Positions 2,895 through 48,555 of a stretch of DNA of 64,000 nt are shown one piece after another (position 1 is the stretch's first letter; each line of letters opens with the position of its first letter). The notes under the pieces are model-generated. The model ran no database searches, was not told the origin of the DNA, and worked only from the letters and a program-made list of their open reading frames with translations. This DNA is from an uncultured Verrucomicrobiales bacterium. Lineage in GTDB: Bacteria > Verrucomicrobiota > Verrucomicrobiia > Verrucomicrobiales > Akkermansiaceae. The stretch covers positions 1 through 64,000 of the forward strand of contig CALFVF010000025.1 of NCBI GenBank assembly GCA_937928735.1, written 5' to 3'. Made by a program: the position numbers and the translations under genes.

Positions 2895-3923
2895 ATGCCA
2901 GTTGCTACACCAGAACAATATGCACAAATGCTGGATGCCGCCCAAGAGGGTGGTTACGCATACCCAGCAGTCAATATCACGTCACTCGCTACCATCAATG
3001 GTGCTCTCAAAGCATTCGCTGAATCAGGCTCAGACGGCATCATCCAGGTTTCCACAGGTGGGGGCAAGTTCGCCTCTGGTATTGCGGGTGCGGATGAAGC
3101 CTTTGGAGCGATTGTTCTTGCGGAGGCGACTCACCGCCTTGCGGAGCAGTATGACATTCTCGTGGCTCTCCACACAGATCACTGCCATCCTGAGAAAGTT
3201 GACTCTTTCCTGCGCCCGCTTCTCGCTGAGTCTGCGAAGCGAAAGGCCGAGGGTAAGAATGTCCTATTCCAATCTCACATGCTTGATGCTTCTATTCTTC
3301 CTCTCGAAGAAAACATGAAGCTCTCTGCTGATCTCATTAAGGAGTGTGCAGCCCTTGACATCATCCTTGAGGTCGAAGCTGGTGTTGTCGGAGGTGAAGA
3401 AGATGGTGTGGATAATTCCGATATGCCTGACGATAAGCTCTACACGACCACTGAGGACATGATTACAGTGTATGAGACACTCAATGGTCTTGGCCGTTTC
3501 CTCTTTGCGGCTACTTTTGGCAACGTTCACGGTGCGTACAAGCCGGGTGCTGTTAAGCTGAAGCCAACGATTCTGCGTGACGGTCAAAAGGCTGTGACGG
3601 ATAAGTACGGCGCAGACGCTGAGATGGATCTCGTCTTCCACGGTGGATCGGGCTCTTCTCTTGAGGAAATCCGCGAGACTCTCGGCTATGGTGTGGTGAA
3701 AATGAATATCGACACGGACACTCAGTATGCTTTCACTCGCCCGATTGTGACGCATATCTGCCAGAACATCGAAAGCGTTCTCAAAATCGACGGTGAAGTC
3801 GGTGCCAAGGGTCAGTATGATCCTCGCTCCTACATCAAGAAGGGTGAGCAGGGAATTTGTGAGCGCCTTAAGGAGGCTTGTGACGACCTTCTCTCTACAG
3901 GGAACTCTATCTACAAGAAGTAG
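2895..3923 (+). CDS. fbaA: Class II fructose-bisphosphate aldolase
   Basis: Start MPVATPEQYAQMLDAAQEGGYAYPAVNITS; HTDHCHPEKVD zinc-site motif; FHGGSGSSLEEI. Confidence 0.93.
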   Translation: MPVATPEQYAQMLDAAQEGGYAYPAVNITSLATINGALKAFAESGSDGIIQVSTGGGKFASGIAGADEAFGAIVLAEATHRLAEQYDILVALHTDHCHPEKVDSFLRPLLAESAKRKAEGKNVLFQSHMLDASILPLEENMKLSADLIKECAALDIILEVEAGVVGGEEDGVDNSDMPDDKLYTTTEDMITVYETLNGLGRFLFAATFGNVHGAYKPGAVKLKPTILRDGQKAVTDKYGADAEMDLVFHGGSGSSLEEIRETLGYGVVKMNIDTDTQYAFTRPIVTHICQNIESVLKIDGEVGAKGQYDPRSYIKKGEQGICERLKEACDDLLSTGNSIYKK

Positions 3924-3950
3924 GTTCCCTCATTGGTATGAGAAATTTCT

Positions 3951-14864: not shown

Positions 14865-15692
14865 ATGCAGGATGCCCACATTCACCTGCAAGACCCAAGA
14901 CTGGAAGACTCCCTTGAGGAGTACATCCAGCAGGCACATGAGCTAGGCATTCAGAGATGTGTGGTGAATGGAACGTCTCCAGAAGACTGGCCGCGAGTTG
15001 AAGAACTAGCTCGTAAGTACCCTGAATTCATCCTCCCAGCATATGGGCTCCACCCTTGGAAGGCTACGCACACACAGATTCAAAATCACTACCCTGACTG
15101 GGCAGAGCAACTAGAAGAGTTACTGCTCAATAATCCACATAGTAGCATTGGAGAATGTGGTCTCGATCGCTGGATCAAAGGGTATGAATTTGACCTGCAA
15201 CAAGAGGTGTTTGAGCTCCAACTTGACCTAGCACACCAGTATAATCGACCTATCTCTGTACACTGCTTAAGAGCTTGGGGACATCTACTGGATACTTTAC
15301 GCACACAGCCTAAACCTCACAGAGGTATTGTACTCCACTCTTATGGTGGGTCCAAAGAACTAGTTCCAGAACTAGTCAGTTTAGGCTGTTACTTCTCGTT
15401 TTCTGGATATTTTCTCCACCCCCGCAAACAAAAAGTTCAGGAAGCTTATCAAAAAGTCCCATTAGAGCGTCTATTGGTTGAAACAGACGCTCCAGACATG
15501 ACTCCTCCTGAATCACTAGTTGTCCATACAGTAGGCATAAATGCTCTGCCAAATAATCACCCCGCTAACTTACTCGTCAATATCCAAGGCCTTAGCCGTA
15601 TCCTAAAAACACCTGAAAATTCATTGCATCAGCGACTGGAAGAAAATTTTTATAATGTCTTTGCACTCGTTACAAATACAATAACAAATTAA
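14865..15692 (+). CDS. TatD family hydrolase
   Basis: MQDAHIHLQD; GECGLDRW; VETDAPDMTP. Confidence 0.88.
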   Translation: MQDAHIHLQDPRLEDSLEEYIQQAHELGIQRCVVNGTSPEDWPRVEELARKYPEFILPAYGLHPWKATHTQIQNHYPDWAEQLEELLLNNPHSSIGECGLDRWIKGYEFDLQQEVFELQLDLAHQYNRPISVHCLRAWGHLLDTLRTQPKPHRGIVLHSYGGSKELVPELVSLGCYFSFSGYFLHPRKQKVQEAYQKVPLERLLVETDAPDMTPPESLVVHTVGINALPNNHPANLLVNIQGLSRILKTPENSLHQRLEENFYNVFALVTNTITN

Positions 15693-15704: not shown

Positions 15705-15863
15705 ATACCAATAAGGAAAAATACCTGGTAGAAAGTGCGAAGAGATTTGGAGGGAGATCAGGGCGAAACCCATCGGTGATGCGAGCATCTCCAATGATGT
15801 GACAACGATGGCACCTCGTCAAAGATCTAGCGAATTCTACCACTTAGTTTTCTGAGTTGGTAT
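15705..15863 (+). repeat. MITE-like intergenic repeat, copy 1
   Basis: ~159 bp bounded by ATACCAA...TTGGTAT; ~79% identical by hand alignment to 48177-48334; internal 19-bp identical blocks; imperfect TIR ~29 bp (22/29 matches by hand). Confidence 0.8.
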
Positions 15864-15895
15864 AAGATCGAATGAATTCGTAGCTACTTAGAGCA

Positions 15896-16654
15896 CTAGC
15901 GTCGGCGAACGAAAAACCCTAAAGACGCAAGACCAAATAACACTGTCGTACTAGGTTCTGGAATGGTTGTTATCGCATTGAAAGAAACATTGTCTAAGGT
16001 AATAGATACACCCTCCTGAGCAGCAAAAGTCTGAACCACCAGTGTATCAATCGATGCGGGAAGTCCAGCTGAGTTTGCACTTTGAGACTGCTGTTCTTGC
16101 GTTAAAACATTATCCACAAAGAAATCATAACCTCCCGCTTCTAGTGTCTGTGAAACCCCAGCTGGGTCTGTGTAGACAAAATCACTCGTTGTCGTATTAA
16201 AGTAGTAGCGAACTGTACTAGTCACCCCATCAACTATTCCCACGGTTCCCGCTTCGAGTGTATCTGACAAATTAGCAACTGGACTACCTCCTGTGCTACG
16301 GGAATCTCCTGACACCAACTGTATGAAGCCTCGATCGGATAAAGTGCCTGGGCCCATTGCCTCAACAATCGTGAAGTCAAATTCAAAAAAACCTGTTGTA
16401 GCCTGCGCTGTAGATTCAAATTCTACACGATCTCCACCACCATTTGAAGTTAGCACAAAGGCATTATTGACAATAGTTAGTGCCGATCCCCCAGCTACAT
16501 CAATAAATCCTGCTCCACTGGATGCAGCTCGGTCTGAGAATTGACCATCAGCTTGTGTAAAATCTTCTGAGAAGATAACCGCTGCTTGGCTACTGGAAAA
16601 AGATATTAAACTAATAACACTGCAAGTGACTAATGCTTTCTTCATGGGTTTCAT
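15896..16654 (-). CDS. PEP-CTERM sorting domain-containing protein
   Basis: C-terminus IPEPSTTVLFGLASLGFFVRRR; N-terminal signal peptide. Confidence 0.85.
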   Translation of the reverse strand: MKPMKKALVTCSVISLISFSSSQAAVIFSEDFTQADGQFSDRAASSGAGFIDVAGGSALTIVNNAFVLTSNGGGDRVEFESTAQATTGFFEFDFTIVEAMGPGTLSDRGFIQLVSGDSRSTGGSPVANLSDTLEAGTVGIVDGVTSTVRYYFNTTTSDFVYTDPAGVSQTLEAGGYDFFVDNVLTQEQQSQSANSAGLPASIDTLVVQTFAAQEGVSITLDNVSFNAITTIPEPSTTVLFGLASLGFFVRRR

Positions 16655-48070: not shown

Positions 48071-48176
48071 AAAGTCGTATATATAGATTACCTCACCAGA
48101 GTAGTGAGGAGGCAGACCTAGCCCCTAGAACCTGAATGAGCAAGATTAATTTACCCACTAGCTCAAGAGTGATTTT

Positions 48177-48334
48177 ATACCAATGAGGAAAACAATCTGG
48201 CAAAAAACGCAGCAAGATTTGACTAGAGACTGAGGCGGAACTTATCGGTGATGCGAGCATCTTCGATGAGTGACAACGATGGCATCTGCTCAAAGATCTA
48301 GCGAATTCGACCAGTTCGTTTTTTGAGTTGGTAT
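48177..48334 (+). repeat. MITE-like intergenic repeat, copy 2
   Basis: 158 bp bounded by ATACCAA...TTGGTAT; same orientation as copy 1; 19/29 terminal inverted-repeat matches by hand. Confidence 0.8.
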
Positions 48335-48555
48335 TATTTTAAAGATTTCTTGGCGGTCTCTCACTGGAGCTGTTTGCTCTGTATCTAAAAGCAATAAAAC
48401 GTAATTTAAGACATCAAGGTCATCCAGATATTTTATAAAACCTTAAAATCACCTTGATTTTTATAAAAATTTGAGGTTTAAATCTACCGCACTCAACCAC
48501 TCGTCTTCATTCCACACAGAGATTTTAAAAAGTCTCTAGCTTCACACCACACACA

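Follow-up and report, generated by a model that had tools for sequence, protein, structure and literature searches.

A probable MITE family with TNA target-site duplications and short derivatives in an uncultured Verrucomicrobiales bacterium

The window, meaning the whole stretch of 64,000 nucleotides that was analysed (positions 1 to 64,000 of contig CALFVF010000025.1 from an uncultured Verrucomicrobiales bacterium of the Akkermansiaceae), harbors two copies of a short repeat whose borders and parts are collected in Table 1. Copy 1 (159 bp, 15705–15863) sits between the genes for a TatD DNase (14865–15692) and a PEP-CTERM protein (15896–16654) and is 79.2% identical to copy 2 (158 bp, 48177–48334; BLAST within the window, E 2.5e-34) across an alignment of 159 columns that contains a single 1-nt gap. 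This agrees with the original prediction, made from the letters of the window, of a non-coding repeat of about 159 bp between tatD and a PEP-CTERM gene that recurs once with about 79% identity and a 1-nt gap. The copies carry no transposase gene and, at 156 bp, contain stops in most or all frames. The imperfect inverted ends of about 29 bp described earlier gave the same count in copy 1 (22/29), and this terminal inverted repeat matches at 19/29 positions in copy 2 and at 24/29 in the genome-wide consensus. The element proper, TACCAAT...TTGGTA, is about 156 bp long with termini TACCAATGAG/TACCAACTCA, and either of its 25-bp ends is itself framed by TACCA/TGGTA. An Rfam scan of the window gave no match at the gathering threshold. 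Elsewhere in the window, on the minus strand at 3924–3938, TACCAATGAGGGAAC adjoins the stop of an ORF (2895–3923) with TCA/TGA on its sides; it is possibly a degenerate lone left end, or chance.

Table 1. Coordinates of the two repeat copies and their parts in the window
Feature	Positions	Strand	Basis
MITE copy 1, element proper TACCAATAAGG...GAGTTGGTA, 157 bp	15706..15862	+	sequence, BLAST, copy alignment
Copy 1, left target-site duplication TAA, preceded by C15702	15703..15705	.	sequence; pattern from 39 copies
Copy 1, right target-site duplication TAA, followed by G15866; target CTAAG	15863..15865	.	sequence
Copy 1, left-type 25-bp end, TACCA...TGGTA, with own borders TACCA/TGGTA	15706..15730	+	sequence, copy alignment
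Copy 1, right-type 25-bp end; also found alone as a 25-bp unit with own TNA duplication	15838..15862	-	end-pattern scan
Copy 1, central mini-hairpin GATGC-GA-GCATC	15778..15789	+	sequence; equivalent with changed bases in relatives
MITE copy 2, element proper, 156 bp; most diverged of 43	48178..48333	+	sequence, BLAST, copy alignment
Copy 2, left target-site duplication TTA	48175..48177	.	sequence
Copy 2, right target-site duplication TTA	48334..48336	.	sequence
Copy 2, central mini-hairpin GATGC-GA-GCATC	48250..48261	+	sequence

A search of the host assembly (2,647,913 bases or 2.65 Mb in 40 contigs, 94% complete) returned 40 scored full-length matches with 86–100% identity, and a search with the core pattern added three more, including copy 2 of the window. 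The repeat is thus present not only twice but in 43 near-full-length copies of 157–161 bp distributed over many contigs, with a mean pairwise identity of 0.917 (range 0.79–0.98) and an average distance of 4.9% from the consensus. Two further loci were noted. One, around position 2515 of locus L184 (host contig C30), is a shorter diverged member (TACCAGTGAAGAAAACTATCTGGTAC...) closer to copy 2 than to the main group, which may be the mark of an older subfamily. The other is a lone right end (1881–1909 of locus L035; host contig C8, 61798–61828) that covers the last codons and the stop of a gene that reads by eye as a 2-oxoacid dehydrogenase beta subunit, with a full copy 90 bp off.

The original prediction saw no clear target-site duplication, and in this respect it has to be corrected, since a 3-bp duplication (TAA in copy 1, TTA in copy 2) is plain once the copies are compared. 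Of the copies with both ends intact, 37/39 carry an identical TNA on both sides (TTA in 19, TAA in 17, TCA in one), whereas shuffling the right flanks among the copies in 10,000 trials gave 17.1 identical pairs on average and never more than 27. The middle base of TNA is the same, and not complementary, on both sides, which makes it a duplication rather than an extension of the terminal pairing. Aligned on their flanks, the copies read ...CTNA|TACCAAT...TTGGTA|TNAG...; a C precedes the duplication in 24 of the 37 and a G follows it in 14, with at least one of the two in 30. Insertions are seen next to genes, at stop codons and occasionally within genes. The duplicated TAA or TGA serves as the in-frame stop of a reading frame that is open for 100 codons or more at 11 of 76 sites (all element sizes), compared with 1 and 4 of the 76 in the two other registers. 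As the duplicated TAA restores the stop, insertions at stop codons are presumably tolerated.

A single interrupted gene demonstrates insertion directly, at one site, at the protein level and between species. One copy (locus L003; host contig C5, 23647–23804) lies within a gene for a DUF1287 protein, which in the host genome is matched in two pieces (1–178 and 177–258). When the flanks are joined after removal of the element and of one TAA, they encode one protein that covers positions 2–162 of the 163 of PF06940 (E 4e-68). Homologues are present in 11/11 genomes of the same genus, and in the five orthologues that were aligned the junction motif NIDHRRVPNL is unbroken and without a gap. An empty site, which the original prediction had proposed to look for in sister strains, is accordingly found in five genomes of sister species in the same genus, at the point where the gene of the host is interrupted; the element carries an in-frame stop, so the gene is broken in the host.

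The many copies, their inverted ends, the regular 3-bp duplications, the lack of coding capacity and an insertion into a conserved gene that sister species keep intact together indicate that the repeat is a non-autonomous DNA transposon of the MITE type with short derivatives, mobilised in trans by what would be an IS5/PHIS-type DDE transposase; we put the probability of this reading at roughly 0.8. It is the first of the two possibilities offered originally, a MITE or a folded RNA/DNA repeat, that is borne out by the copies, the TNA duplications and the interrupted gene. In the mechanism envisaged, a transposase acting in trans would excise or copy the element of about 156 bp, which would then be joined to target ends left by staggered cutting at TNA, most often in the context CTNAG, and filling of the 3-nt gaps would leave a TNA duplication on each side. 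Forms with internal deletions (109–112, 41–42 and 25 bp) retain two usable tips and appear to have undergone further moves at the shorter size.

MITE ends are far commoner in the host genome than full elements; some belong to truncated copies, and three recurrent shortened forms account for derivatives that look amplified at their own sizes. The 109–112-bp form occurs at three loci with a common internal deletion and its own TNA duplications. The 41–42-bp form occurs at six loci with one breakpoint (GAATTC|CTCATTGGTA) and an exact TNA duplication at 4/6 of them; a breakpoint shared by six separate loci is difficult to account for without movement of the 41-bp form as such. The 25-bp form, TACCAACTCAAAAAACTAACTGGTA, shows an exact duplication at 24 loci and an imperfect one at about ten more, a set of solo units that was selected by exact duplication, so that its duplication rate is no independent statistic. 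Among the 24, 22 are of the right-end type and two of the left (p = 3.6e-5 versus equal odds), and the CTATC variant, present in 23/54 right ends of longer copies, occurs in 0/22 right solos (p = 7.5e-5). The chance that a DDE-type system moves the 41- and 25-bp units as complete transposons, with TNA duplications of their own, is a little short of even; for independent mobility of the 25-bp form by itself the odds appear to be about even.

The most serious alternative for the 25-bp solos, doubtful but with a substantial chance of being right, is that they are immobile remnants of 156- or 41-bp copies, formed in situ by slippage between TGGTA...TGGTA with the old TNA kept. The endpoints of the deletion coincide with a 5-bp direct repeat, whose two units are separated by a mere 16 bp when the longer copy is the 41-bp form. 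Remnants of full-length copies, however, predict left and right solos in equal numbers, and the observed right-type bias, together with the missing CTATC variant, speaks against repeated deletion from such copies. An origin from the 41-bp form explains the bias but needs independent slippage in most of about 30 copies, six having escaped it. It is possible that the 25-bp form arose through TGGTA deletion from the 41-bp form, in a single event with later amplification or in repeated events. If the 25-bp TACCA/TGGTA unit does work as a transposon on its own, it would rank with the smallest elements known to transpose with a target-site duplication.

The 25-bp unit also has an imperfect dyad symmetry; it is found singly, and two units in inverted orientation form the ends of the 156-bp element. 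The chemistry of the IS200/IS605 type is not known to leave a target-site duplication. A REP/REPIN-like system, in which short palindromic units, single or in inverted pairs, are moved single-stranded by a RAYT (an IS200/IS605-type tyrosine transposase), is thus very improbable here: REPs in REPINs are arranged likewise (PMC3116915), but the 156-, 109-, 41- and 25-bp forms bear constant 3-bp TNA duplications, and no GTAG/CGTC tag lies at a set distance beyond the dyad.

For a MITE, the TNA duplication points to a mobiliser that is probably a DDE transposase of the IS5/PHIS supergroup, since the IS1031 group of IS5 inserts into TNA with 3-bp repeats (PMC12016507) and the NuwaII group of the PHIS superfamily has the target C|TNA|G (PMC4482050). 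IS5-family MITEs and the IS1031 group likewise combine a 3-bp TNA target and its duplication with, in the MITEs, a non-coding body between inverted ends; IS1031-type ends (GA(A/G)CC, e.g., GAACCTGTC; PMC12016507) are unlike the TACCAAT ends of the present family, which has no cognate IS found and whose ends are each bordered by TACCA/TGGTA. The target also resembles the TWA of PIF/Harbinger elements (PMC4482050), eukaryotic transposons with Tourist-like MITEs; the likeness to these eukaryotic groups, NuwaII included, is confined to the target. A full-length IS with the same ends, sought as the original prediction suggested, did not turn up: none of the DDE_Tnp_1 and DDE_Tnp_4 genes of the host and of four family-bearing relatives has TACCA ends, which, with an assembly 94% complete in 40 contigs, is weak evidence against a transposase. 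An IS in one relative (G016) has ends that read GGGCGTGTTTGCAAA and not TACCA, and six copies with atypical ends, inspected for an autonomous element, have no transposase adjoining; the genes beside them are ordinary by eye (peroxiredoxin-like, FtsH-like, tRNA, etc.). Several IS transposase genes of the host (DDE_Tnp_1 matches, L114–L119) are frameshifted or contain internal stops, so that active IS elements in this organism may be few.

Among bacterial repeats of comparable appearance, RUP, NEMIS/Correia, ERIC, QMITE1/2 and Chunjie are likewise about 100–200 bp long, foldable, intergenic and present in many copies with size variants, those of QMITE1 ranging from 39 to 400 bp (PMC10969869; PMC2229807). 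Most of the bacterial MITEs reviewed duplicate TA (IS630-type) or a longer target, in contrast to the TNA and the duplication-flanked 25-bp form found here. Small dispersed repeats of cyanobacteria (SDR, 21–27 bp), reportedly described by Elhai in 2008, are said to be tiny units that seem mobile, with RNA intermediates suggested; the 25-bp form differs from these in its TNA duplications and in having a parent MITE with the same ends. The family is a new one of a known kind, and its unusual part is the 41- and 25-bp derivatives, apparently amplified, with their duplications.

The fold of the consensus is a single long hairpin (-75 kcal/mol), and the pairing of its central hairpin is kept with other bases across genera (GATGC-GCATC, GGTGC-GCACC and GGGGC-GCCCC). 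Within the host genome, divergence is equal in columns that pair (0.049) and in those that do not (0.050), double changes among the copies number 12 against 14.2 expected and thus show no excess, and the mean fold energy is -63.8 compared with -60.9 (sd 6.8) for a randomly mutated consensus. Decay of the copies looks neutral, selection on folding leaves no trace within the genome, and the fold seems relevant, if at all, to mobility and not to the host. That the repeat is a structured RNA or a protein-binding DNA repeat which spread through duplication or recombination and is retained by the host as, for example, a terminator or for mRNA stability is hardly credible despite its hairpin and the exchanged base pairs in other genera, given these divergence values, the insertion marks left by the TNA duplications and the broken gene, and its absence from 11 same-genus genomes; as a host function, this second half of the original suggestion finds no support.

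The distribution of the MITE family is patchy. No match was obtained in the 11 other genomes of the same genus at E 1e-5, while the 25-bp end (with up to three mismatches), searched in 261 genomes of the bacterial family, is found 94 times in the host and also in four other genomes (G016, G058, G090 and G101) from three to four other genera; a reversed control pattern had no hit in the 261. The elements of these four are about 200 bp long, with the same ends, other middles and TNA flanks. G016 is listed in GTDB as an uncultured Verrucomicrobiales MAG, and exact matching of a degenerate end pattern across GTDB gave 10 stretches, of which only two (L126 and L130), from the uncultured Verrucomicrobiales MAG, are real. 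Those in Syntrophomonadaceae, Psychrobium, Emticicia and a Bacteroidetes MAG have no second end and are apparently chance matches. Phages and plasmids gave no match by BLASTN, and the end patterns were absent from viral contigs. This patchy presence fits occasional horizontal arrival followed by a burst in the host species. G058, from another genus, also has a short element of a different kind, TACCAAGCAGTAAACAGACG...CGTCTGTTTTGCGGAGTGGTA, flanked by TTA. It is placed directly beside or inside a family copy (L049/L050, L092 and L096), so that elements sharing the TACCA tips are nested in one another.

The repeat adds to the Verrucomicrobiota an undescribed MITE family with the target TNA/CTNAG, which until now was reported as characteristic of IS5 relatives and of eukaryotic PHIS elements. 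Its series of sizes (156, 109–112, 41–42 and 25 bp) is a natural experiment in how little DNA a transposase needs, and a duplicated TAA that remakes the stop of a gene is presumably one way for insertions to stay harmless.
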